From Mesodorylaimus sp. YZB2_4 (lineage: Eukaryota > Nematoda > Enoplea > Dorylaimida > Dorylaimidae): a stretch of DNA of 64,000 nt. Under the pieces are notes generated by a model. That model had not been told where the DNA came from. It ran no database searches and saw only the letters and a program-made list of their open reading frames with translations. How positions within the stretch are numbered: the first letter of the stretch is position 1; each line of letters starts with the position of its first letter. Below, piece by piece: positions 8,821-56,110 of the stretch. The stretch covers positions 93,065 through 157,064 of the forward strand of contig JASANH010001015.1 in assembly GCA_030248295.1 (NCBI GenBank), in the 5' to 3' direction. Made by a program: the position numbers and the translations under genes.

Positions 8821-9142
8821 AAAGTAGGGGTCACCAAATGCCACGTTTTGAATTTCCCGCCCAGGGGCCGCTCGTGACTTTAGAACGGTTTGGGCTGCTT
8901 ACTCTGGGAATCGCGAAAAAAACATAAAATCTTTCACTTTTTCACTTCGTGTCCATCTCATTTTGTACTACAGTAGAGTATATGTCTTTCGTAAAAAATA
9001 AGAGAAATTCTAAATTTCCCTGTGACCTCCAGATTAAGCAGCCCAACCGCTCTAAAGTCATAAGCGGCACGCGTGCGGGAAATTCAAAAGGTGCATACTT
9101 CAGGCACTTACGATTAGTGGCCCCTACTTTTCTCTTGAAAGT
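8821..9142. mobile_element. Palindromic MITE-like element
   Basis: The left arm at about 8821-8912 (AGTAGGGGTCACC, TTTTGAATTTCCCGC, TTTAGAACGGTTTGGGCTGC) is repeated inverted at about 9030-9142. A loop of about 115 bases lies between. No coding sequence. Confidence 0.6.
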
Positions 9143-9900
9143 CGAATTTCAACCAGAAGAAAGCAATCGATGCAATTTTTATGCTCTATACGAAAATAAG
9201 TGTCCAGTTCCATGATTTGTTTTGAAAGATTTTTAAAAATGGATTTTTTTGAAAATTTCCTCTAGTTGGCTGCAGTTTTTTTGGATATTTGGATATCAAA
9301 TGTAAAGCTAAAGCATAGACGAGGGGGTTAACGTTGATAGCCAGATGGGTTGAGCATATTTCAGGCTGGTCAAGCCCCGTCTCCCTGCTAGCAGAAAGGA
9401 ACGGGAGGTCTGAAACTCGTCAACTAAGAGGGCACCTTCAACTTTGGCGCCTAATATCTCGAGATAGGTGAAAGATAGAAATTTTTCGCGACAGGCATTC
9501 GATTCCTTATTCATTTGCAAACACGCCGATGTGTCGTTGATCGTGAAAGGCCGAAAGATTGGTGAGTTATGGCCGATATCGCCCAAGCAATAACAAAAAA
9601 CGTTTTTTGGGATAATGTCGTGCAAATCGACTTTCGTCCGCGAATTGAAACTTGGCAACCTGTGTTTCCTTTGGGTCGAACCTTACAGAAAACCTGTCTC
9701 GATAGTGCTACCAAAAGAAGGAGCCGATGACGATTCGCCTGGGTCAGACCGTGGGAGAGAAATGACGAATGATCAGAGACTACATGAGAGCGTCAACTGA
9801 AATGTTTAATGCATTAAAAAGGCCAAATAATAATTAATGTTTGCTTATGCATAGTTTCACATGTGCTAAGAACAGTGCCCAGGGAAATATGCTACACTTC
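9143..9900. other. Stretch without a recognised gene
   Basis: ORFs of up to 116 codons occur but show no domain, signal sequence or splice pattern I trust. Confidence 0.4.
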
Positions 9901-9905
9901 TGTTT

Positions 9906-9911
9906 TTTATT
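9906..9911 (-). terminator. Polyadenylation signal of the lectin-7TM receptor gene
   Basis: AATAAA on the minus strand, about 10 bases after the receptor stop codon at 9921. Confidence 0.5.
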
Positions 9912-9920
9912 CACAATTGC

Positions 9921-12900
9921 TTATTTCTTGCAACACAGCTTCTTCGCGAAATTTCTGACCTAAAAAAGTTAATGATCTTTTTATCGTTGAGCAGCGCGAC
10001 AAATTTTTGGCTTACTTTGTCGTTGGATAATAAATGGTATAGAAAAACCAGGATGCCGGTGGCCGCGTTAAGACCCAAGACGACTACGAACAGCGATACG
10101 TTCATGGAATATACGGCCCCCGATCCAATGAACCAGGAAGCGTAGGTCGCCGCGGAAACCATGGTCAGTCCTCCTCTGGCAATTCTGAAATTACGCAGAA
10201 TGCATTAAGGTTTCTTGCGTGCTTATTTCAAATCCTTGATTGCCTGCATGACACAACGCTTTCGTAGGGCGCCCCTGAAACCTCGTTTCCAGAAGCCTCC
10301 AGCAGAATCGTTGTTAAGCTGCCCAATGCCACGGATGGTAAAAACGTGGCGAGAAATACACTTTCATCGTGATTGAGCCAGCATCTAAGGCAAAAAATTG
10401 CTAAAAAGGTTCTAGAAATGCTCTTGCAAAGAACTTACGAAAAATCAGACATCACTTTGTCGAAGGATGTTGCAGCCGTTACTGCTGTCACCACAAATGG
10501 CACGCCTGAAAGTTCTAATCCTTGTTATCTCTTTCGCGCCAGCCCTTTGATGAGTCACTCGCTGTACTAACAGTATGCACATGTACTGTACTTACCATAG
10601 CAAAGACCAATAGCTGCTTTCAGTCCGATCAGCGGGTCCCCTCCCTTGTCAACAAAGGTCAAAACACTGTAGATAAACAAAGCTTCCACCAGTTGAAAGG
10701 AGAACGAGACGAGAAAGAAGTACTGCATTCCAATAGCTGCCATTTTGCACACTTCCTGAAAATGATTAGTCCGGTCTGGTCCTGCATGAAATGTGAGGCA
10801 TTGGTTTAATACTCACGTGACTGAAAGTTTCGTCTTTTCTTTTTGCAAAATTTAAAACTAGCACATGCGCAAGCATGTAGGTAATGTCGAAGTTCAATTG
10901 GATAACTGGGAGGTAAGCTTTTGGTCTAAACGGAATTTACTTTTGTCTGTTATACAAGGACTGGAAGGAATCTTACCTCGATACAATGCCAGATACAGCA
11001 GTAACTGCCAGTGCTGCGATCAACCATGCGCATCCGATGTCCATCGATATGCCAGCAATAATTTGTTCCAAAGGTGTCATGGGGTTCTAAACAGTAACCT
11101 GGGCATAATGAGTCTGACATCGCAAAAGTGATCATACGCATTTTTGCAATCCGCAATCCTCTTCTTGCCTTTCCACTACACAATTCGACGTGGACCCATT
11201 GCCGCTGTCTGCAATGTACTTGCGAACTCGAACTCGGACGTGCATGCCGCACGTTGCTGCGCAAATACTGAACGGCTCCCATTCCATTGGCGTACACTGC
11301 GATTCACTTACCTGGCCTGAAAAATATACGACTTTGATGCTTTGTCTTGGTGCAAGGTCAGCCTTGGTCTAACAGATCGATGTTGCAAGACTTACTCATA
11401 TTTTTCCCTGAGGACATTGTTGATTTGGTTGTGTTATCAAGGCTGCTTGAAGGGATTGCACTGGCCGACCTATCGGGCATGATCGAAGAGGGTATGCCAC
11501 CAGAAACATTGCTGCCACGGAACGATGTCGCTGGCAGGACAGTCAACCCTTTTGTGAGCTTACTGGCAGTCAGTAATGCAGGCTGGTCCGTTGTAGTTCT
11601 TGCAGGAACATCAGGAGATGGTGCAGATGGGAGCACTTGCGTATTTGAGTGGACAATGTCAGTAAGCTCTGGCGTGACGGCAATGTTTATTAGATCTAGT
11701 GATTTCCGAAGAGTTCCAAACATTTGCTGCTTGCTGTTCTTGGCCAAGTCAGATGGCTGGCTTCGGGTAGTCTCGCCCGTTTCATGAGTGCTCAGGCTAA
11801 TAGCTGTACTGCGACGCTGTCGTGAGGTTCTTCTGCCGCCGCGACGCCTTCGTGGTGTTGTTCCTCCTTGGAACAAAATCTCTGCTGGCGAATCGACTGT
11901 CGGATCACCATTTCGAACTTCGTATGCAGTGAAACATGCATGAGTATTTGGATCACATGGTGCAGAAGTGGTGAGTCGCCATGATTTTCCGAGGGACAAG
12001 AGGTCATCAGTTGTGTCGCGCCCCCCTGCAGATGTTGCACTTTCACTGCTTATGCTTGTGACAACGTCTTCTTTGGACCACCCTGGAGAAGGTGCAGCTG
12101 GAGGTGAATCTGTTGAAAAGGCATCGGCAGGGGTGCTATAGGAATCTGGTGAATATTTAATGGCAATGCTGCTGCGAGGCATTGGAAACAACCCCTGATT
12201 TGTCGTTCGTTGACCCCCACTTTCTGGAGAGATGGACGAAATTGTAGAAAATGGTGGCTGCTGAGTTGTTGTAACAATGGATGGCACAAAGGACGACAAA
12301 ACGGTTGTAAATGGCCATGTTAAGGCCAGTGAAAAAGGTTTCAGGCCTAAAAGTGCTTGGTTATCATCAGATGGCCCTATTATCGAAATTAGTGTCGAAG
12401 CTTTTTCCATATTGCCATCCACTATTTGCTGGCTAGCGGCTGAGTGCAACAATGTCCCACCGCTGTCAGTGATTGGAGGAGACTGTAAGCAGGAGACAGC
12501 AGCAGAGGGGTTGCACAAGTATTCTTCTGCCACTGAAGATTCTGTAGTGTGAGCTTGTGAGATTGCAGAAGAAAGTGACTGTGAGTTAGAAGTAGCGGCG
12601 AGCAAGTCGGATGCGTCAAAAGATATCGGAGATACAGTTGACAAAGTTTGTGTTGGTTCTTGAACTGAAACTAGATGTGGAGTTGCTCGACTTGATGCGG
12701 CATGCTCATTGTCAGTTGTAAGTTTTGAAGTGATACTACTAGTATAGCTGAATGCAGGGTCTGGACGAGCAGAAGGCTCTTTTGAGCTGGATGCGGATAA
12801 CAGAACAAGGGCTTCCAGACTGGTGCTTTTTCCCGTCGGTTTGGGATCAGGCGAGGGAGTCAAAGTCCAAGTTGCATGCGCGGCTGCTGTTGACGGGATT

Positions 12901-15900
12901 GCAGTGGATGTTGGCGCCTTTGAGTTGGTGCTTTCGAGGACATTGGTGATGCCAGTCGTCGCTTTTTTCGTGCTGCTTTTGAAAGATGAAGTTAGGCTTT
13001 CAGACTGCGATGTCACTACTGGGGTTGTGTGACTCGCAGTGTTGGTGCTAGAAGTCATCATTTCGGGGGACGGGCTTGTAAAGATAGTTGTTAGTTCAGA
13101 CGAGGAAAGCAATCGCTCCTCCCTCGGTGAGGTGACTGTGGGGACAAACGACAGGCTGATGGTCGATTGAGAACTGTCCATCGCTGTTGTTTGGATGTTG
13201 GCTGATGCTGGCATCTTGCTTGCAGCTGTGCTTGATGTTACACCATCAGAGCTGGTAGTGGTGATCGCAGTGGGGCTGCTGAATGATGTGGTGATTTCCA
13301 GGTGTAAGGTATTAGGGCTAGCTTCGATAGCGGTAGACTCTGTCACCAATTTGGAAAGGCTGCTGCTTGTGATTGGCATTTGCGTGGGTGGGATGCTTGA
13401 AGCATAAAGAGTTGTTTGTTGAAATTGGACTCCCAGCGACGAGGAATCGGGCGTTGTTTGAGCCACGGAAGAAGCTGCTTGAAGGTTCATCGCTTCGATG
13501 GTATTTCTTGCATCTGCTCCAGTGGCTGTCAAAGTGGACTGACCATGTATAGTCATAGACTGCGTTATGGGTATGGTCGTCTTAATTAGTGCACTCGACT
13601 GACTAGTACTGCCTTTTGTGCTTAGCAATGTGGTTGAGTACACTGTGGAAGGAGATGCACTAGTGGAAGTATAGACTGCTTGCAATGATGATCTGCTTGA
13701 TTCGGGTGCAGCGGTCGGCGTCCCAGACACCTGATTTGCTGTTGTTGGTGATGATGGAGGGATAATAGTCGAAGCTGACAGAATACTCTGTATTAAAAAT
13801 GATGATAGTGTCATCGCCAAGGAAGGACTGTGCCACGATGATTGCAGCCATTTGGATGAAGGTTCTTGAGTGGTCTGTATTTTGGTGGAGTCATAGTCAG
13901 TTAATGAACTGCCCGTATATTCCGTCTGTTGTGTGAAAGGGGCCGCGCTGGTGATCGAGCATGAGATGCCAGCAGCTTTGCATAGGTCGATTGTTGAACT
14001 GGCGGTAGTGATAGCGGTGTGTGTCTTGGAGGAAGTAGCAGCAGGGCTGGACGACTCAGTGGGAGACGACGCAGCTGCACTATCAGTGGATGGCGAAGCG
14101 GCTGCCGTCGTTTTTGTCGCAGGGTCACTAGCAAAATGCATGGAGAACGATGTTCTCGGGTGGGTGACTGTTGACGGACTGCTTGAGCGCACAGTGGATG
14201 GGGAGCTTGACAGCGAGTATGGGGGAAAAGTCGATGACGTGCTTGAAACCAACAGTGGCATCGTGGTACTTTGGCTCGACAGTCGTGACTTACTGCTGGT
14301 GGAAGCTGAAGACGACATTGATAATGATGCTGTCATGGAAGTCAAAGACCCTTTCGACAATGTTTTGGTTGTGCTCGAAGTTGAAGATGCAGAAGGTGAT
14401 GTTATGGTTGCGAGGGATGGTGACCATGGAGCAGATGCAGGTGGCGTTGAGGGGTTTGTTGATGGCATTATTGTTGAGGTGGACGAGGTGGTTGTGGATG
14501 CAGACCAAGTTAAGGGAGTTTTGTAAATTGGAGGCGATGTTATGGGTGTGGATGACACTGAAGGAATTGAAGAAAGAGTGGGTGAAGGCATGGCTCGGGT
14601 GGGGAAGGAGGTAATTGTTGATGAAGATGAAGGTGGAAAAGTTCCAGAGGCGGATGAAGACACTTTTGTTGAATAGGTGGAAGACGATCGTACAGATGCT
14701 GGTGACGTTGACGGGGTCGCAGATAACGTTATGGGCGAGGTGGACGAGGATGTTGGGGGTACAGACGAATTAGAAGTAGAAACAGAAGATGACGTCAGGG
14801 CTGAGGCGAATGACGTGGTTGGTATTGAAGATAAAGGTGCAAAACTTGTTGGCGCAGGAGGGGATTCCATGTTTGAGGAGGGGGAGGGTATTGCAGAGGC
14901 TGATGACGTTGAGGTGGGCGCCTCTGAAAAAGTCGTGTAAACAGGAGTTGGCTGCAAGGTTAGGGAGGCTGATGAAGAAGCAGAAGCTGATGACGACGAG
15001 GTGGTTGAGGATACCATAATGTCACACACGCCTGGACTGCATTCGTGGTTGGTATTGGTACCAGGACATGTTGCTGGAGACAGGGGACCAGTGCAACCTG
15101 AAATTGCGCCCTTCACCAAATCAGAGTGGCAACTTGAAGCCGAAACAGCTTACTCAGCTCGCATATGTATTTGTAGCTACTTGAGTCGCATAAAGTGGCA
15201 TTGAACGTGGTTGGAAATTTGGGATTCACAATGAGGCATGCGGGTGAAATTCCGTCTGGCGGGGTTACTGCGATCGATATTGTCGTGAACTGCGATCCAG
15301 GGGTCGCCGAATCGGTCATCCAGCAGTAGTCTGAGAGCAATGTTCCACCAGTCGCTGCTCTCGCTCCAACCCATATCAGATCTGTGCTGCCTTTTGTCAA
15401 ATTATGGATGATTTGTGCATACATCGCATAATCGGTGAAATATGCCACACGACCTGATTGAAAGGGGGGATTCCCCAAGGCAGTGCTGTTGCATTGAGTA
15501 TTCGTCCAAGTGCTTGCTTGAGGACTCATCTTGTAGCACTTGCCATTGTAAAAGACGCCGCCTCTGCTTTGACAAAACGTTGCATCGCCTACAATGCATC
15601 AGAGGTGACTGCTCTCTTTAACAGATTCTCGTGCTTCAAACTCTTACAGGAGGTTGCGGCCGCCGCTGTCACAATGGAGGATGTCTGGGATGATGTAATT
15701 TCTAATTTTGTCGAGGAGGAATTGTTTTGCAGTTGAGTATTCGGTTTTGAGGATAGGTCACACACGCCAGGCCTGCAGTTGGGGTTTGTGTTAGTTCCAG
15801 GACATGTTGCGGGTGGGAGGGAGCCGTAACAGCCTAGAATGAAATCAGTGTCATTACCTGGCTATACTCCCCATCAATTCATTTTATGCTCAGGCTTAAT

Positions 15901-16484
15901 TAGCCCAGCAGCAACTTACTCAGCTCGCATATGTAAGAATAGCCGATGCCTGAATCGCAGGGAGCTGCGCGAAATTTGCCCATATCTTGGGAATCCACAT
16001 AAAGACAAGCGGGAGAAACTGTTGGTGAAAGGTTGACCGAGGTCGTCTTGGTCGTGAATTGCGATCCGGGAGTTGATGAATCACTCATCCAACAGTAATC
16101 CGAGAGTTTTGTTCCTCCTGTCTTAGCTCGAGCACCGATCCACACCTTGCGTTCGGCCTGTTGTGTAAATCTTCCTAGGATTTCTTCAAGCATGGCCATA
16201 TCTTTGTAATAGGCCACTCGTCCAGTCAGAAACCCCAGAGAAGACCACACAGTCAAATTATCGCACCGCGCAGCGGACCAAGTACTTGGTTTGGATTGCA
16301 GTTTATAACACATTCCGTTGTAGAATACTGCACCGCTACTTTCGCAAATTATTCTCAAGCCTGAGGGAAATAATAAAAGCTCAACGCATGTCAAACTGAT
16401 CAAGGCCAACTTACATTCTGCATCGACTAAACAAGCTGCTGTCAACGCCGTGATCAGCAACTTTGCCAGGAATATGCCTTCCAT
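9921..16484 (-). CDS. Chimeric 7TM receptor: signal peptide, two C-type lectin domains, mucin stalk, TSP1, adhesion-type 7TM
   Basis: Thirteen minus-strand exons join in phase: 16484-16415, 16360-15920, 15833-15648, 15588-15154, 15097-11396, 11316-11138, 11086-10977, 10925-10817, 10755-10596, 10505-10439, 10384-10244, 10184-10016, 9959-9921. Product about 1935 residues. Residues 1-23 are a signal peptide. Exons 2 and 4 each encode a C-type lectin domain (WIGAR/WVGAR, SDYCWM, PAC, YICEL) without the EPN/QPD or WND calcium-sugar motifs. Exon 3 is a short Cys linker. Exon 5 is a Ser/Thr-rich stalk of 1234 codons. Exon 6 is a TSP1 repeat (EWEPFSICAATCG, VRVRVRK, six Cys). Exons 7-13 give seven helices of family B2 type (QYFFLVSFSFQLVEA in TM3, CWLN before TM5, LNAATGILVFLYHLL in TM7) and a tail VRNFAKKLCCKK. 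No GAIN/GPS region is seen. The exon 11 donor is uncertain (needs a GC-AG intron). Surface receptor; ligand unknown. Confidence 0.8.
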
Positions 16485-17168
16485 AGCCCCGCTGCGGTTA
16501 CTGCTGTATAACAGAGGAGGAAATATAAGAGATGGCCTGTGCTCGAAATTCCATACAATTTGATAGCAGACCAACAACGTATTCTACAGTATGTTGCGAG
16601 GAGCCCGCTAGACTGGAGGTAGAGAATATAAAGGCCTTCCACAATTTACAGCCATCAGATATCAATTATTTTTGTCAATATTAAACTAAAATGCCTTGTA
16701 ATTACAGGCCTGCACTAATGGAAAGCTTACAAATTGTATTTCCCTAAAAGCAGAGGATGGAAACCTTTCCAAGTTGGGAGCTCCGTCGCAAGGAAAACCT
16801 TTGAGGGCTCCAAAAAATTGATTATTCAGCTGCAGCCAAGTTTAAGCGGAAACCAGACGCTTATGCGCACTGATACGACTTTAGACACTTAAAAAAAAAG
16901 AGAAAAGTAGCTGCTGCATATAAAGTACCAAAAAACAGTCAAGCCGAAACTATCCAGTGCTGAAAAGTGGAAAAAGAATAGAGCTTACTTGTGTAGATTG
17001 ACAGCTGAGAGAATAAATTGATGCCGTTTTCATTGTGGAATGCAAGTACGCCAGTGCCCAAAACCATTGCAACTGTGGGGTTTATTGCTTCAGGTTCCAG
17101 CTACTTGTGGGCTCACAATGACGGGGTGACTGACACAAACGGATGATTCTATATGCTGCAGCTAATAA
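16485..17168. other. Upstream region of the receptor gene
   Basis: Contains a TTTATATTC sequence on the minus strand near 16625-16635, a weak TATA candidate about 145 bases before the ATG. Otherwise no gene is seen. Confidence 0.35.
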
Positions 17169-35200: not shown

Positions 35201-38200
35201 AGGGCGAAATTTTTTGTGAACACATTGAAAAACTGGTAGCTCGAATGAAGAGCCACTAAGTCTAGAGCCTGAGACTGGCTAGTTCAAGATTGGTTCTAAT
35301 CAAGAAAGCAACAAAATTGGGCAATTTTTTAATAAAATATTTAAATCAAGAAACGGAAACATAATGAAAAATAGAAGGTCCGAGGTGGAGTCGAACCCGC
35401 ACCTATGAGATTAATAGTTTCTCGAGGGAACGGATGTGTTATTTGTTGTATTTAAAAACTGTCAAAAATACTCAAACGAGATGAGACTGCGTGATTTAGT
35501 GAGCCAGACTGGCCGATGGGAAAAATGTGTGCCTTCACTTATTTTGTGGGAAGGGGGTACTCCCCTGGCTGAGCGCCTGGATTTGCGATCCGTGGAATTG
35601 TGAATCTGAGGGGTGAGGGTTCGACTCCCGCTTAGGGTTCATGTTTTTGTTTCTTGAAATGTAGGATTGTTAGGCCTGCCAGCGAGGGGATAAGTCATTT
35701 GGAATTGGATGACGAAACTAATGAGCTGGATGAAGAAAATGTGAATTTATTATATGCGCTCATCGTTGGCTTATAGTTTATCATGATAAACTGCATGATA
35801 CGAGGAAGGTTTAAAACTACACAAGAGGAGTAAGAATTGGAGTGAAAATAAGAGAAATCCTTGCAAATTCCCTGAAAAAAATGGAACAGGCAAATTTAGG
35901 AAGTCAATTCAAAGTAATAACGCAAAAAGTTATATTCAATTGGATAATCCGTATAGTCAATCGGATAACCCAGATGATACCCAATCAGATAATCCGGATG
36001 TACTGCAAATCAGATAATCTGCATATCCAATTCATTAATCTGGATATCCAATCGGAAAATCTGGATATCCACTCGGAAAATCTGGATATCCACTTGGATA
36101 ATCTGGATATCCACTAGGGTAATCTGGATATCCACTTAGGTAATCTAGATATCTACTCGGATAATCTGGATATCCACTTGGATAATCTGGATATCCAATT
36201 GAATAATCTGGATATCCACTTGGGTAATTTGGATATCCACTTGGATAATCTGGATATCCACTTGGATAATTTGGATATCCACTTGGATAATCTGGATATC
36301 CACTTGGGTAATCTGGATATCCAATTGAATAATCTGGATATCCAATTGAATAATCTGGATATCCACTTGGGTAATCTGGATATCCACTTGGATAATCTGG
36401 ATATCCACTTGGATAATCTGGATATCCACTTGGATAATCTGGATATCCACTTGGATAATCTGGATATCCACTTGGATAATTTGGATATCCACTTGGATAA
36501 TTTGGACATCCACTTGGATAATCCAGATATTTAATCGGATAACCCAGATATTCAATAAGATGATGCGGATGTACTGCACAGTTGGATAATCTGGATATTT
36601 TATGGGATAATCCAGATATGTAATCTTATTACTCGGATATCCAATCAGATAATCGGGATGTTCTGCACAATTGGATAATTTGAAAATCCAATTAATAATC
36701 GGGATATTTAATCGGATAACCCAGATATCTAATCAAATAATCCGGGTGTACTGCACAGTTGAATAATTGGGATATTTAAATCGATAATCCATATATATTC
36801 AACCAGATAATCCAGATATCCAATCGGATTATCCAGATATACTGTACAGTCGGATAGTATGGATATACAATCCAATAATCTGGATATTAAAGAATTATAC
36901 GGATATGTTAGCAGATAATCCAGACTCGATATCTGGTCCGATAACTGCTTTTTAGGGGTAAGATGGTTTTTGTCATTTTAGATAGCCGTGATCGTGCCTT
37001 TCCGTGATCGACAATCGCATTTGAATCGTCTTATCGATTTTCTTATTCCAATGATGGAAAGGCAATTATTGGATTTTCGATTTATTGTAACTGAACAGGT
37101 GAGGGCTGGACTTTGGTGTCTGTGGATGGAGGGTGTAGGAAATGGTGGGAGAATGTTTATTGTTAAAGAGGTTTTTTTGGTAATTAAAAAATGGCGGGAA
37201 ATTTAAAAATGTCAGAAAAGCAGATATTGTCTGTGTTTTAGTACGGGAAAGATTTATTCAACAAAGGGCGCATAATGAATGCGGCATTTATGTTGGCGGA
37301 GAAATTGGGTGTTGATTGTGTAATATTCCACGATGTGGATATGTTTCCACAGGATGATAGGAATTTGTATTATTGTCCGAATGAACCCAAGCATTTGGGT
37401 GCCTATGTGAATACGTTAGGATACGAGTAAGTCCACGCTGCTCGGTGGTGTTTGCCATTCGAGGATGGTATTTGGACTCGGTTGCAGGTTGTGGTACGAT
37501 TACATCGTTGGAGGAGTTCTGGCCATAAATGTCGAGCATTACCGGCAAGTGAATGGCTACAGTAACATGTACTGGGCCTGGGGAGGAGAGGACGACGATA
37601 TGGGTTACAGGTGAGTACAAACGGGGGGGGGGGGGCTGGGATGAGGTGTGCAGGTGGTATGTTTTAGAATATTGGCCAATAATTTGACAATCGAGAGGCC
37701 GGAGAAAGAATACGGGACGTATACTATGCTCAAGCATGTGAAGAGACAAAGGACAGCTCCTTCGATGATGTAAGTAGAAATGGGGTGGGCTGGGAAGGAG
37801 AGAAGGGACCACTCTCAGGCGAGACATGCCAATCAATGAGGCCGCGGTGGTGCAGTGGTTCGGCATCCGTCCGCCTGTAATTAATTGGTCGTCGGTTAGG
37901 AAGGTCTGCTTGCGAATCCTACCCCTGCATAGTATTGGTAACAGTAGGACGAATCAGTACACTGGATTGGTAACTTTAGGGTGCGGGTTCGATTCCTGGT
38001 CAGGGCTAATGTTTTTGTTTTTGTTAATGGATTCTATTTTGAGCCGATTTTTTTCATCTAAAAGTTGTCAGTTAGGATCATTTTCGCTGGTGAATCTTAT
38101 CCTTAAGGCACTTCTGTCATCAAGGAAAACACTGCCGAAAATACTCATTTTGTGTGGTTTGGCATCTCAGGGGGTTACTCAATGGTCGAAACTTCTGTTG

Positions 38201-44567: not shown

Positions 44568-47500
44568 TTATTTTGACCGCCCATCATCAGCCCATCCATA
44601 CAAGTTGTTTTTCCACCACGAGCTCACATCAGTGCACAATTTCTTTGAATGCACATCAATATCAATTATGGACGAGAGAGTAAGGTGAGCGTGCTTTGGA
44701 CCAAAGGCAGCGCATTCTGGTGATTCTAAGAGATTTTTCAACTCTTGAATTTGCGCATTGTGCCCACATCCCACCATGATCGTTCTGAGGGCATCAAAGA
44801 GAGCATTGCACGGCCCCAGGCTGCTGGCGCATTGGTCCATTGTTGAACATGCAGCGTACAAGTTGGGTGCTGTCTGGCTGTAAACGGCACGAATGCACTG
44901 CGAAACAGCGCTTCGTTTGGTTTTGGTGTCGCAAAATGAGGCCACTGTCTTTTCATTTTGCATCAATGGAATATAACTGTACCAAAAGTAGGTCTGAGTA
45001 CCTATTTCCCTGAAAAGAGTGAGTTTTTAGCCCGATGCTCTGAGAGCGAATCGAATTTGTTGTCTTTTGACCAAGTTTCAGTAAAAGTATTGCATGGCAA
45101 GTGACAGCAAGCGATATGCTGCTGCAAGTAAATCTGGTGAAACAAAAAGGGCCTGATTATAGTCGGTCGCTAGCCTGTCGTCCGACCAGGCGCGCGTGCC
45201 TCAAATTCGCGTAGTTGCCGCATTCGGGCGATTTTATCGAAACTTTCAGCGATAACCCAAGTTAATGTCAGCGAAAATTTTGTAGAGAAAAATATGCTCT
45301 ATCAAGCAGATATGATTTGAATTTTTTTGTTATTATTAAAGAATTTTTGCTATTCAAATGGAGAAAATTGTTAAATTTAATGAAAGCTGCAACAGCAATA
45401 CGAAGACAACCAGTCGATAGAGCGCATTTTTTTCTGCTAAATTGTCGCTGACATTGATCCAGGTTATCGCTGAAAATTTCTAGAAAAATTGGCAGAAAGC
45501 AGCAAAGGCGCAAAAATGCATTTCGACAGGCGTGTGTGCACCCAATTATAATTTGGCCCTGATTTTCTATCTCACAGTGATCGCAAGTCACGATCTCCGC
45601 TCAGGGTTTACGTTTTTCAATTATCGTTCTACCTGTAAGACATACCCGTGCAGCATATCTTTGCGCAACGACAAGGTGCCCGACAAAATTGACGTGATGA
45701 TCCACAGCGTATCTTCATCGGCGCCAAGGAGCTTGTTCATGGCTTTTACAGCATCAATCACACAAGTCCGGCGAGTGTATTCCTCCCAAGACATAAATAG
45801 CGACACTCCGCACCGAGCCGTTGCCTCAGAATCTTTATTCTTCAGTTGTTCTCGCACCGCTGTCGGATCATTGCATTGGTTGCTAAGAAATCGAGTAAAG
45901 GGGTCACATACAGCTTGCTTCAGCCAATGATCACATTATTGATGCCACCCTTAGACAGTGTTTCTGTATGGGCCGACCACGACCTTGACAAGTGAAAATG
46001 TTGACCCAATGATATTAGAATGCACAAATTAGACACAAATAATTAGTGATTTGTCACATATTAGAACAAATTACAAATTAGTGATTAAGAATAGTATGTG
46101 CCCCACAATTGTATGGAGGCGCAAAATTGAAAAATACTGTATTTTGCACCCCTTCCCTGTGGAAATACACATAAAAACGTGTTGCTTTGGCGATATCTCC
46201 CATATCTCCCAAACCCTTGGTCCCGAAATGATCTATCCACCATACCATACCATGATCTATTTCTTCCTGACAACCATAAGGTGAAACGAAAGAAGTTTTC
46301 AAGGTGGGTCCGGAGTGGGTACAGAAAATCTGATTCCATGCGCGTCCTGTTTTCTGATGAGAAGATTAGAGGGTCATGGCACACCCGAAAGAATATGTCA
46401 AAATGACCACAAGATAATGGCTATCGAATGCTTTTTTAAAATTTTGCCTAGATCTTACCGTTCGCGATATATTCCCGTCTGCAATTAGAATTCAAATTTT
46501 TCTGCACATACTTTCCGAATAACTCGATATAAAGAAAAGAAAACCCCTTTAAAGTTTTACCATATGTGCGCCTTGGTACCCGCTTTCAGAAAATATAGGT
46601 ACGTTATATACTTTGTCGTTACATGTTAGGGTCAAAATCGCAAAAACCCCTAAATTTGCCAGCCATGGTTTTATTCTCGATCTTTAGAGTTCGACCGCAG
46701 GCTGCTATCGACACCAAACATAGCTTGCCTTGCAGAGCAAAAAATGCTGCAAGAGTAGCCCTTTCCCATGTTCAGCAGTCACTAGTTAAAAACGCGTACA
46801 GGACACGTATTTCTCATATCTGCCATTGCTAGGGCTGTGCGGCTGGCGACGAATCAGCGATTGTTTGCGACCGTAACGAAAGCGATTTCGCAGTCGCAAG
46901 CCGCAGACGCTTCGCGAACTGCAATTCCCACACTTTACAAGTAAATGTCCTGTACGCGGTTTTTTGGTGACTTCTGAACATGGGACAGAGCTACTAAGCA
47001 AAAAATGGGGTCAAAATTTTTATTTGGCACATTAAGATTTGTATGAGTCGACCCTCACAGAAACCCTGTCTAAACTCACAAGGTACAATTATGTGATCAA
47101 GATTTGCAGGCATCTCATTTGAAACTAGTGGCCAATTCGGTTGGAAGCTCCTTTGTGGAAGTCGCTATTGTGGGGTGGGGGGAGGGGGGGTGTAAACTAG
47201 TAAACGCTTGTGCGCTAGTCAAGGCATTCGATACAGCACTGGATGCAGCCCAAGGGATCGCGAAGGTGATTTGGGTCATGGTAAGACAGGTACATATGGA
47301 CCCTTGAACCACTAGGACCACCCTGGAACAACCAGCTAGTCTCGGCTTGGTCCCCGGATGGCCTATCGTGATATTACCGACTGCGACTCTGCCCGGCATC
47401 AGAAACCAGTAAACTCTGCATGCTTACTTGATATAACAGTCGAGAACCTTGAGTTCGACAGCAGTTGCATTAATAGGAGAAGCAGCACTTTCGGCACACT

Positions 47501-48583: not shown

Positions 48584-50595
48584 TTACTTTGACCGCCCAT
48601 CATCAGCCCATCCATTCAGGTTGTTCTGCCACCACAAGCTCGCATCAGTGCACAATCTCCTTGGGTACACATCATTACCGAGCATGGACGAGAAAGCGAG
48701 GTAAGCGTGCTGAGGACCAAAGGCAGCGCATTCTGGTGATTCTAAGACATTTTTCAACTTTTGAATTTGCGCATTGTGCCCACATCCCACCATGATCGTT
48801 CTGAGGGCATCGAATAGAGCATTGCACGGCCCCATGCTGCTGGCGCATTGGTCAATTGTTGAACATGCAGCGTACAAGTTGGGTGCTGTCTGGCTGTAAA
48901 CGGCACGAATGCACTGCGAGACAGAGCTTCGTTTGTTCTTGGTGCCGCAAAATGAGGCCACTGTCTTTTCATTTTGCATCAATGGAATATAACTGTACCA
49001 ATAGAAGGCCAGAGTACCTGTTGCCCTAAAAAAATGTGAGTGTTCAGCCCAATGCCCGCTCAAAAAAACACTGCAGATCTGAAAGATAATCGAACTTGTT
49101 GCCTTTTGACCAGGTTTCAGCAAAAGTATTGCGCGGAAAGTGACAGCAGGCGACATGCTACTGAGTGTAGATCTAATGGAGGTGGCCCAAAGGTGGCTAA
49201 GGGCCTGATTGTAGTCGGTCGCTCCCCTGTCGCACGACCGACTCTGCCGCATTCGCGCGATTTTTCTCGAAATTTTTAGCGATTTTCCCAAGTTCATGTC
49301 AGCAGCAGTATTGCAGAGAAAAACGTGCTCTATCAAGCAGATATGATATCAAGGCTTTTATCGAAGAATTTTCGTGAATTTTCGCGATCAAAAATGCGTT
49401 TTAACAGACCTTGGTGCACCCAAGTATAATTAGGCCCTAATTTTCTGCCTCGGAGTGATCGCAACTCAGAGGCACTGGTTCGATCTCCGCTCAGTGTTTA
49501 TGCTTTTAAATTATCATTCTACCTGTAATACTTACCCGCGCAGCATATATTTGCGCAACGACAAGGTACTCGACAAAATTGAGGCGATGGTCCGCAGCGT
49601 ATCTTCATCGGCGCCAAGGAACTTGTTCATGGCTTTTAGAGCATCAATCATGCAACTCTCGCGAGTGTATGCCTCCCAAGGCATAATTAGTGACACTCCG
49701 CACCGAGCCGTTGCCGCAGGATCTTTATTCTTCAGTTGTTCTCGCACCGCTGTCGGATCATTGCATTGGTTGCTAAGAAATCGAGTACACGGCTTGGTCA
49801 GATACTATTTGGTTCAGCCTAGGAGTTGGACCTACAAATTACAAGGGGACTGTATCTCATATACCGCATTTCATACTTTCCAGCGGACTTATTATTGTCA
49901 CCTTGTCATTAGCAGTTTTTAAAAGTCTGCGCAGTCTCTCCTCGGTTTTTCTGATTTATAGGTCGAACTCCTTCCATGACGAGTCATTGGATGAAGGTCA
50001 TTGGTGTGTCATTGGCCTCATCCAATGACACGTCATTGTTGCCATCTTCAACTCATAGGGTCTAAGCATGTGCTTAATATTTGCAGGCATCTTATTTGAA
50101 ACTAGTGGACATATTCGTCTGTAGGCTTCTTCAAGGAGGTCCCTGTCGTGCTGACCAATTGGGGGGAGAGGGTGTATGTCATTAGACGCTAGGTCTGATA
50201 AGGGAGTTTGATACAGCGTTTGGGGCAGCCCAATCGATCGCAAAAGTAATTTGACTCATGGTAAGGTAGTATACACCTGGACCCTTGAACCAGTATGACC
50301 TCTCTGGAACAACAATCTAGTCTCGGCCTAATCCACGGACGCCTATTAAAAGAGATATTATTGACTGCGACCCCAACCACGATCAGAAATCATAAACTCT
50401 GCATGCTTACTTGATATAACAATCGAGGACCTTGCCTTCGACAGCGCTTGCATTCATAGTAGAAGCAGCACTTTCGGCACACTGAAAATATGCTTCGACT
50501 GCACTTCTACACATGCTCACCGCCGATGACATGGAAGATTGTGAATTGGTGTTTCCAACGAGGCAGGCTCCAATCAGCACAAGGATTCTATGCAT
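48584..50595 (-). CDS. Secreted Cys-rich protein, three exons, paralogue B
   Basis: Minus-strand exons 50595-50411, 49772-49536 and 49025-48584 have lengths 185, 237 and 442, the same as paralogue A; 287 residues. Signal peptide MHRILVLIGACLVGNTNS. All cysteines seen in A are kept, while surface positions differ (for example SLFMSWEEYTRRTC in A against SLIMPWEAYTRESC here), so both copies look maintained. Intron 1 is short (about 640 bases). Intron 2 carries a shortened family P MITE at the same place as in A, so that insertion came before the duplication. Function unknown. Confidence 0.82.
49198..49440. mobile_element. Palindromic MITE family P, partly deleted copy, in intron 2 of paralogue B
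   Basis: Keeps GGCCTGATTGTAGTCGGTCG on the left and ATAATTAGGCCCTAA on the right, with much of the second arm lost. Confidence 0.65.
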
Positions 50596-53727: not shown

Positions 53728-54843
53728 CTACGTTTTGTTCAAAAGTTGATCAAGTTCGTTAGGATTCTCGTGGGCAGCATTGTTGGCGTGGATGAATGTC
53801 ATATTTCGACCATGGTTGATATTGTGGTCATGGCCGACTTGACCCCATCGTCTGGCCCAGCCGTACTGTTTCGCCCGGGCGGTCTTGATTTCAGGGATAC
53901 GTACAGCGTAGATGACTGGATTGATGAGACTTTTGAAGAGAATGCACAAATTGGAGAGGACACCCAGGGCGAATACGAGTTTGGGATGTGTGTCGAGTGT
54001 GAGAGGACACGTGCTGCAGGTGAGCAGGAAGGCGAGACAAGTGGGGATCCAGAAGAGGAAGAAAGTGACCCAGATGCAAACTGTGGTCATGAATGTGCGT
54101 CGTTTTCGTTTCAGTGCCGTGCTGGGCGTGACCAACTGGTCTTGGCGATAAGACAGGTGCAGGAACTTGATGTAGAGGGTTGACATGACCAGGAATGGGG
54201 CCACGAAGACGAAGAAGGTGACGAGACGGAATGAGAGTGTGGACCAGAATTGTATTTGCCAGCAGTGGCCGAGGCAGGGGTGATAGGGGGAACGGAATCC
54301 CTGGTTGGGGGTTGCTGAGAAGAATAGGAGTAGGAAGAAGGGGGGCAGGCACCACATGACGCAGATGACGAGTCTGGTGGCCCTGGGCGTCAGGATCTCC
54401 TTGAATGTGCTGGGATGAGATATGTTCAAGTAGTGGCTGACGGCCAGTGCCAACAAGTGCCAGGTGCTGGTGATCAGGCCACCCATGCGTAGGGCCTCGA
54501 ATGTGAGCGAGACGCAGGCATTGGTGAACAGGCCCAGCACGGAGTACACGTAACTGTTGTACACCACACTGAAGGTCATGGCGATCGAAGTGCACAGGTC
54601 GGAGACGGCTAGGCTGATGGTCAGGGGCAGAGTGGGGTTGCCGCAACGACCGCTCGATGGTCGCTTGATCAGACGAGTGGCCAGTAGCAGGGCCCCGTTG
54701 ACCAACATGACCACCATGGCTAGCAGAACAATGACGGGCACTGCCACAGCATACAGCTGCCGTTTGAGGAGAAATAGAGATGCTTCGATAGGGGTCAGGT
54801 TGGAGGAGCAGGGCAGAGACATGTTGATTGGAATACCATGCAT
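53728..54843 (-). CDS. Class A-like orphan GPCR, intronless
   Basis: The ORF opens at 54948, but the ATG at 54843 is preferred: it puts a short N-terminus with two N-glycosylation sites (NMS, NLT) right before TM1, giving 371 residues. Seven helices are clear: TM1 VIVLLAMVVMLVNGALLL; TM2 PLTISLAVSDL; TM3 ending LLALAVSHYLNISHP; TM4 VICVMWCLPPFFLLLFF; TM5 LVTFFVFVAPFLVMSTLY; TM6 VCIWVTFFLFWIPTCLAFLL; TM7 LCILFKSLINPVIYAV. NPxxY in TM7 and the FWIP form of CWxP mark class A. The DRY motif at the end of TM3 is SHY, so the acidic and basic residues are lost. A basic loop (KRKRR) precedes TM6. Ligand unknown. The upstream region is packed with GATA sites. Confidence 0.88.
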   Translation of the reverse strand: MHGIPINMSLPCSSNLTPIEASLFLLKRQLYAVAVPVIVLLAMVVMLVNGALLLATRLIKRPSSGRCGNPTLPLTISLAVSDLCTSIAMTFSVVYNSYVYSVLGLFTNACVSLTFEALRMGGLITSTWHLLALAVSHYLNISHPSTFKEILTPRATRLVICVMWCLPPFFLLLFFSATPNQGFRSPYHPCLGHCWQIQFWSTLSFRLVTFFVFVAPFLVMSTLYIKFLHLSYRQDQLVTPSTALKRKRRTFMTTVCIWVTFFLFWIPTCLAFLLTCSTCPLTLDTHPKLVFALGVLSNLCILFKSLINPVIYAVRIPEIKTARAKQYGWARRWGQVGHDHNINHGRNMTFIHANNAAHENPNELDQLLNKT

Positions 54844-54849
54844 GGCAGA

Positions 54850-56110
54850 TGGACAACTGATAAGTACTGATAGGATTCTGATGAATAAGCTGATTAATGA
54901 CTGGACTTCACAGTTTGGGCAGCCCGCTGATATGAGATGGTCCAGCACTGATTAGCACGGTTGATAAGGGGTGATATTCGTGAATAAATGCCAGATAAGA
55001 ATTACTGATAAGGATTGACATCGACGAAGAAATGTCGGATTTGATTCATTAATAAGAAGTGATGCTATATATGATTCACTGATAAGAAGTGATATCGACA
55101 AAAAATACCAGATAGGATTTGCTGATAAGAAGTGGTACCGACGAATAAATACCGCATGCGATTTACTGATCATTGGTAATATTGGCGAAACATTTAGGCC
55201 TGGCCAAGAATAGAATCAATACAGTACTCATTGTTTTGACGGAAAATGATGCGGGGATCTGATGAATCTGACCAGACCTGATTTATGCGGAAACAGTAAG
55301 TCTATCAGGCAATCGTGCCTGATGATAAGGATTTTCTCGCGGGGCACAAAATATCAGTCAAATCTGTTGATAACGGATGATAAGAGTAAAAGTTCAGTGA
55401 TAATAACTGTTTTGGGCAGAACAGCAGCAGACTGACTGGAATGGGTTAGTCATGCTGAACGTTGTTGGCCCGCAAGACGCAAATCTTACTATCGAGAAGA
55501 GTCCAATCTGATAAGGACAGATATGAACAGGCAGATTGCCTTAGTGATAAGGACCGGTATGACACGCAGTCATTGCAATCAAGCTGTGGTCTGCACCTTA
55601 TGCCTCAGGCTCCCACCTGCACAGACAGTCACTAGAACCAGAGGACGTTCTCCTTATCAGTAAATCCAGTTGCTATCAATAACACATTATCAAAGGGATA
55701 TTTTGTCCTAATCAGAGCTATTTGTGGACAGAAAAACGACGTTTTCACATCCGACAGGCATTATCAGTTCGAAAATAGCGCCTTATCAGTGCGCACTGAT
55801 AAAATCAGTGTCGTGCCATAAGAAGAGATAATAGAACAAGGGACATGTGATGGATTTAGGCGTCAGCTAGACTCGTCCAGTTTGACTTTATCAGTGAGTT
55901 GGCTTATCAGCGAAGACTAAGAATTTTATTTTAGAGTACCGACGCAGCGCAAAGAACGAAAATGACCAAACTGTAGCTCTTATCAGCTGTTATCGCTTCG
56001 CTTATCAGAAGCAAGAAACACAGAATCTCCAGCCAAGCGGGATTCCAACCAGCACCCGCGTATCAGATATTACTTTTATTTAGTAAAACAATTGATACTG
56101 GTGATAACAC
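54850..56110. promoter_or_regulatory. Dense cluster of GATA-factor sites beside the GPCR
   Basis: I count about 25 GATAA/TTATC words in about 1.26 kb, roughly half in the extended form CTGATAA/TTATCAG, on both strands. The first part (54957-55170) is a degenerate tandem repeat of about 57 bases (CTGATAAGAAGTG, ATCGACGAA, AAATACCAGATA). The rest (55320-56105) has the motif without a shared repeat context. The cluster lies just upstream of the GPCR start. Confidence 0.6.

Follow-up and report, generated by a model that had tools for sequence, protein, structure and literature searches.

A predicted nematode receptor that joins C-type-lectin-like domains, a mucin-like stalk and a TSP1 repeat to an adhesion-type 7TM core, with no GAIN domain or GPS detected

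Introduction

Can a receptor with the seven-helix core and the long N terminus of an adhesion GPCR be built without a GAIN domain? The question is raised by a minus-strand locus (16484-9921) of the window, that is, the whole stretch of 64,000 nucleotides of Mesodorylaimus DNA that was analysed. Our preferred reading, to which we give a probability of roughly 60%, is that the locus is one gene for a predicted adhesion/secretin-type 7TM receptor devoid of GAIN and working by the mechanism proposed below. It would probably belong to a GAIN-less branch of adhesion-type GPCRs that serve in contact or recognition and whose signalling involves no self-cleavage, and sensing of surface or mucus contact, as proposed in the first-pass annotation of this DNA, may be a reasonable guess.

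Gene model

Re-splicing of the locus reproduced the thirteen in-phase minus-strand exons and the 1935 residues that had been proposed for it. The predicted transcript (5808 nt, stop included) contains the terminal stop codon only. Its 12 introns measure 51-90 nt; 11 are of the GT-AG type, the remaining one (intron 11, 10243-10185, minus strand, in the TM5-TM6 loop) is GC-AG, and five of the 12 acceptors read TTTCAG. A GC donor at the TM5-TM6 loop is possibly used also by the paralog on C151 (contigs are given here as C and a number). The features are as follows.

16415..16484, minus strand: exon 1, start codon and predicted signal peptide (MEGIFLAKLLITALTAACLVDA) (spliced model; residues 1-29 hydrophobic)
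15920..16360, minus strand: exon 2, CTLD1, C-type-lectin-like (Lectin_C 3.1e-5; family profile against PDB)
15648..15833, minus strand: exon 3, Cys motif (CPGTNTNPNCRPGVC) and short Ser/Thr linker (spliced model)
15154..15588, minus strand: exon 4, CTLD2 (about 50% identity to CTLD1; weak PDB match to CTLD chains)
11396..15097, minus strand: exon 5, Cys motif and Ser/Thr-rich mucin-like stalk (residues about 405-1612)
11811..11852, minus strand: furin-type motifs RRRR and RQRR in the stalk (residues 1460-1473; motif scan)
11138..11316, minus strand: exon 6, TSP1 repeat (Pfam; paralog scores)
11087..11137, minus strand: 51-nt intron between the TSP1 exon and the TM1 exon (spliced model)
10977..11086, minus strand: exon 7, NPMT..E linker and TM1 (spliced model; family alignment)
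10817..10925, minus strand: exon 8, TM2 (spliced model; structure-match alignment)
10596..10755, minus strand: exon 9, TM3 with conserved Cys and start of TM4 (spliced model; alignments)
10439..10505, minus strand: exon 10, remainder of TM4 (spliced model; structure-match alignment)
10244..10384, minus strand: exon 11, extracellular loop 2 (CWLN) and TM5, GC donor at its end (spliced model; alignments)
10016..10184, minus strand: exon 12, TM6 and TM7 (spliced model; structure-match alignment)
9921..9959, minus strand: exon 13, very short cytoplasmic tail (VRNFAKKLCCKK) and stop (spliced model)
9906..9911, minus strand: AATAAA, polyadenylation-type signal shortly 3' of the stop (sequence)

Cys motifs resembling CPGTNTNPNCRPGVC also follow the CTLD in C151, C406 and C62. 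The frame of the stalk runs into a stop shortly inside intron 5 (11395-11317), and a transcript retaining this intron would therefore encode a secreted lectin-mucin protein. This stop speaks for a model that fuses two adjacent genes, one for a secreted lectin-mucin and the other for a TSP1-7TM protein. However, the gap between exons 5 and 6 is just 79 bases, the frame leading into TSP1 has no start codon followed by a signal peptide, CTLD and then 7TM recur along the arrays of C39 and C83, and the order is the same in five of five other loci, all of which makes such a fusion very improbable.

Two other open reading frames of the window (44568-45026 and 48584-49348, minus strand) encode near-identical protein (FWYSYIPLMQNEKTVASFC in one), a local duplication, and a 21-base repeat of about 25 copies at 36013-36530 is open in two frames.

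Domains of the predicted protein

Pfam searches were run on three overlapping pieces of the protein (residues 1-408, 405-1252 and 1235-1935). Lectin_C is reported on CTLD1 only (3.1e-5). For CTLD2, Pfam gives nothing better than chance; its identity to CTLD1 is 49-50%, and it weakly matches CTLD chains of the PDB (best 0.0038). A family CTLD profile retrieves CTLD proteins from the PDB from 1.7e-5. The CTLD cysteine pattern is present in both, as indicated by Pfam for CTLD1 and by identity and profile for CTLD2. A structure prediction of CTLD2 with CTLD1 was not used (pLDDT 36). The usual calcium- and sugar-binding motifs of C-type lectins are EPN or QPD together with WND. QPD and EPN are likewise named as motifs in passages of PMC9085898. 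A motif scan found none of EPN, QPD and WND in CTLD1 or CTLD2, and the ligands of these domains may therefore be proteins. The two C-type lectin domains of the first-pass annotation are thus retained as domains, devoid of the calcium and sugar motifs, and "lectin" is used here as a name of the predicted fold only.

The stalk of about 1200 Ser/Thr-rich residues was borne out, with a Ser/Thr share of 40% over residues 405-1612 (1208 residues), and is probably O-glycosylated. The TSP1 repeat following it was also recovered, with six cysteines and a profile match (TSP1_spondin, 5.4e-6; TSP_1, 9.1e-4), both scores being under the curated cut-offs in the window's copy; three of five paralogs tested pass the TSP_1 cut-off.

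The 7TM part is assigned 7tm_2 by Pfam (6.4e-13). Its nearest solved structure is ADGRD1 (8.1e-12, single sequence query), and a 15-member family profile returns ADGRD1 (2.9e-15), ADGRL3 (7.7e-15) and thrombospondin-1 (1.4e-7) from the PDB. The cysteines of TM3 and loop 2 are kept in 15 of 15 aligned members. The adhesion-type seven helices of the first-pass annotation are supported by the 7tm_2 and ADGRD1 matches, but not by hydropathy alone, which gives six peaks, TM6 being placed by alignment with ADGRD1. The protein combines a 7tm_2 core nearest to adhesion receptors with a long ectodomain carrying adhesion modules, as expected for class B2, and the hormone-receptor (HRM) domain of class B1 was not found by Pfam over the whole protein in three pieces. 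The protein contains no H[LIVM][ST] triplet.

Other receptor-like genes were seen. The window holds a single-exon rhodopsin-type GPCR (53728-54951, minus strand; 7tm_1, 1.3e-19) with AVSHY replacing the usual DRY, which matches chains of melatonin, serotonin and galanin receptors best in the PDB. In the assembly, long open frames (481-1287 aa) on C130, C885, C253, C731, C688, C159, C343, C24 and C103 align as a single piece with most of the 7TM at 19-25% identity, and may represent another set of class-B-like receptors, present in several copies and intronless there.

Absence of GAIN and GPS and the TSP1-TM1 junction

Neither GAIN nor GPS was found by Pfam in the three overlapping pieces of the window's protein. 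A scan for the GPS pattern was negative in the window at 9000-17000 and in six family stretches, and positive in four of four GPS-bearing control loci. A GPS profile search of the 145 Mb assembly reports eight matches, none of them on the contigs of the 29 loci described below; six of the eight lie beside other 7tm_2 matches (C58, C72, C130, C249, C2 and C16), and the GPS of C58 and C72 reads CNHLTTFAVLM. A GAIN profile search of the genome gives a single match (C58), and none on the contigs of the 29 loci; because the GAIN family matches only once in the genome, this search is counted as weak. The lack of GAIN and GPS claimed in the first-pass annotation therefore agrees with Pfam, with the genome-wide GPS search and with the positively controlled pattern scan.

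The TSP1-TM1 regions of the paralogs were spliced with a small purpose-written aligner, yielding 29 distinct 7TM loci, window included. TSP1 directly precedes TM1 in 24 of them, namely 22 open loci (for one of which, C62:10k, the fetched stretch includes just part of TSP1) plus two interrupted by internal stops. The latter (L018 and L022) have their stop in the 7TM part and look like decayed copies. No TSP1 adjoins TM1 in the other five (C206, C76, C22, C78 and C441); C83:224k, read outside the spliced set, has TSP1. The 51-base intron between TSP1 and TM1 was confirmed at 11137-11087, and leaves no room for a GAIN domain. Among the 22 open loci, the corresponding intron measures 46-72 nt in 20; in the other two, C63 and C39:559k, its length is 232-233 nt. 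A GAIN domain would fit into none of the 22.

These introns bear on a GAIN/GPS exon that is present but missed. Six-frame searches can overlook diverged domains and GAIN matches once genome-wide, but the TSP1-TM1 gaps are too short in all 22 open loci and the GPS pattern is absent from the window's 9000-17000 and the six family stretches while present in the four controls. No such exon was found, and we regard its existence as most unlikely of all the alternatives weighed here. As the GAIN-less build is common to a large family, it is no accident of the gene model.

The linker from TSP1 to TM1 is roughly 10-17 residues long and carries P-M-[TS], often followed by x-x-E, in 19 of the 22 open TSP1 loci, the exceptions being C83:337k, C589b and C39:512k. 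Forms of this motif are recognisable in C76 and C78, though TSP1 is absent there. Such conservation would suit a built-in agonist, exposed on displacement of TSP1 in a Stachel-like receptor without GAIN. However, the segment does not show the TxFAVLM Stachel pattern, unlike C58 and C72 of the same genome, and it may simply cap TM1, so that we hold an agonist role to be improbable.

A large and partly tandem family

A genome search with TSP1-7TM gave at least 155 matches (of 193 candidates, 123 were scored), and the CTLDs as query found 62; the predicted genes form a large, partly tandem family in the 145 Mb assembly. From the TSP1-7TM matches listed, 49 rows for the TM6-TM7 exon were picked by hand, not all of them necessarily family members, together with 56 CTLD rows. 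C708 may be the second haplotype of C83:309k. Both C39 (nine 7TM and 23 CTLD rows) and C83 (10 and 16) present alternating blocks of CTLD and 7TM, with eight of nine and nine of 10 7TM rows, respectively, in one orientation.

The order CTLD, Ser/Thr-rich frames, TSP1 and 7TM exons recurs in all five further TSP1-family loci of this genome that were read (C151, C589, C406, C62 and C83). In C151, C406, C62 and C83 a single long frame of 1212-1675 codons makes up the stalk, with smaller pieces alongside in some. In C589 it is split among several frames of 124-591 codons, pointing to introns or damage. Two loci depart from this plan. In C206, CTLDs are followed by a Ser/Thr-rich frame of 1736 codons and the 7TM, without TSP1, and C78 comprises two CTLD-like stretches (one Lectin_C match), a short Thr linker and the 7TM. 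Since GAIN is absent in these TSP1-less types too, its lack is wider than the TSP1 branch. In a tree of 29 rows (27 from the family, two GPS-bearing), the GPS-bearing pair splits off with support 100/100; all TSP1 rows fall together, though support for the group is modest (73/87) and long branches meet in the tree.

Paralog stalks resemble the tail of the window's stalk in composition, with no significant sequence match (best E 0.067). A conserved island in the stalk, suspected by eye, was dropped on that value, reached in one paralog.

The assembly also contains a separate CTLD cluster (C21:899552-951506; 38 Lectin_C matches on one strand over about 52 kb), 133 matches to the cuticle-collagen N-domain, which indicate a nematode, and two latrophilin-like genes, which agree with that; C. 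elegans has two latrophilin-like genes. Searches run without a positive control gave one match, below cut-off, for the Srh chemoreceptor family and none in the assembly for chitin_bind_4.

Selection and the role of the 7TM core

Ratios of dN/dS were computed by the Nei-Gojobori method on chosen close paralog pairs, all drawn from family genes other than the window's. They amount to 0.08-0.19 for the 7TM (10 of 10 pairs), 0-0.44 for TSP1 in seven of nine pairs, the other two being saturated, and 0.14-0.60 for the CTLDs (seven of seven pairs), the pair at 0.60 having almost no changes. Between the window and its nearest paralog, C151, synonymous change in the 7TM is near saturation (pS 0.74, pN 0.225); TSP1 gives dS 0.98 and dN 0.40, and the CTLDs pS 0.74-0.83 and pN 0.28. 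The predicted 7TM exons are under purifying selection and the family members look like working genes, the CTLDs and TSP1 being somewhat freer to change than the 7TM. No average sign of positive selection was seen on the CTLDs in the seven close pairs.

These values weigh on whether the 7TM is more than an anchor. In a membrane-anchored adhesin, the lectin and mucin part would act in trans or once shed at the furin-type motifs, as could be expected from the very short cytoplasmic tail and the two such motifs in the window's stalk; C. elegans LAT-1 is reported to work via its N terminus alone (PMC11540312). Against this stand the strong purifying selection on the 7TM exons, with core residues kept, and the occurrence of furin-type motifs in only three of the six TSP1-family stalks read, a count on which furin processing as a family-wide substitute for the GPS was also dropped. 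We consider an adhesin role possible but rather unlikely.

Proposed mechanism

Returning to the receptor reading, domain order, the short TSP1-TM1 linker, the lack of detectable GAIN or GPS and family membership come from the sequence, and we infer the rest of the mechanism. The lectin-like tips would recognise a surface protein or glycan while being kept away from the cell by the long, probably O-glycosylated stalk. Pull or binding would then be transmitted through the cysteine-rich TSP1 to TM1, and the 7TM core would couple to a G protein, with no self-cleavage and no tethered agonist of the usual kind. That the family has expanded suggests that it serves as a repertoire for different surfaces, such as microbes, food, mates, hosts or the animal's own cuticle. 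More tentatively, these genes could be contact receptors of a class of their own. In these, TSP1 would replace GAIN in holding and gating TM1, the variable lectin-like tips of tens of genes would serve as a recognition repertoire, and activation would proceed by displacement or tension, with neither self-cleavage nor Stachel.

Comparison with known systems

Like ADGRD1 and the latrophilins, the window's protein comprises a 7TM core and a long multi-domain N terminus, and TSP1 is listed among adhesion GPCR modules in passages of PMC12716839. It differs from adhesion GPCRs in that no GAIN or GPS was detected and TSP1 sits directly on TM1. ADGRA1 (GPR123) has a short ectodomain and is a single human gene, in contrast with the expanded family found here. 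In human it is likewise an adhesion-type 7TM protein without GAIN, according to parts of PMC12922695 and PMC11697300; the former describes GAIN in all adhesion GPCRs except ADGRA1, and the latter in 84 ADGRA1 homologs from 47 species. Those parts also back the first-pass premise that GAIN is the norm in adhesion GPCRs.

CTLDs joined to an adhesion-type 7TM have precedents. In the plant-parasitic nematode Bursaphelenchus xylophilus, the protein Bxy|Bu_11124 has two CTLDs and a 7tmB2 latrophilin-like part but carries a GPS, unlike the window's protein, as described in passages of PMC9085898. Amphioxus Adhesion GPCRs with Lectin C-type domains are mentioned in passages of PMC2246102, where the GPS is ascribed to many Adhesion receptors, not necessarily the CTLD-bearing ones. 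In the titles, abstract openings and selected passages of the literature searched, no GAIN-less CTLD-mucin-TSP1-7TM family is named. The unusual build claimed in the first-pass annotation is upheld in that GAIN and GPS were not found and that this is common to a large family, but receptors without GAIN/GPS are not unheard of: among sponge Adhesion GPCRs, selected passages of PMC4302439 give up to 12 of 40 without GPS, as here, although some of these reportedly have short N termini and may be incomplete models, unlike here. The GAIN domain counts as the hallmark of adhesion GPCRs, and their agonist is taken to come from it. A family with a 7TM core and huge ectodomains in which no GAIN is seen would be a natural experiment that asks if such receptors need GAIN to sense contact, and its TSP1-7TM part, of about 325 residues, offers a simple test object.
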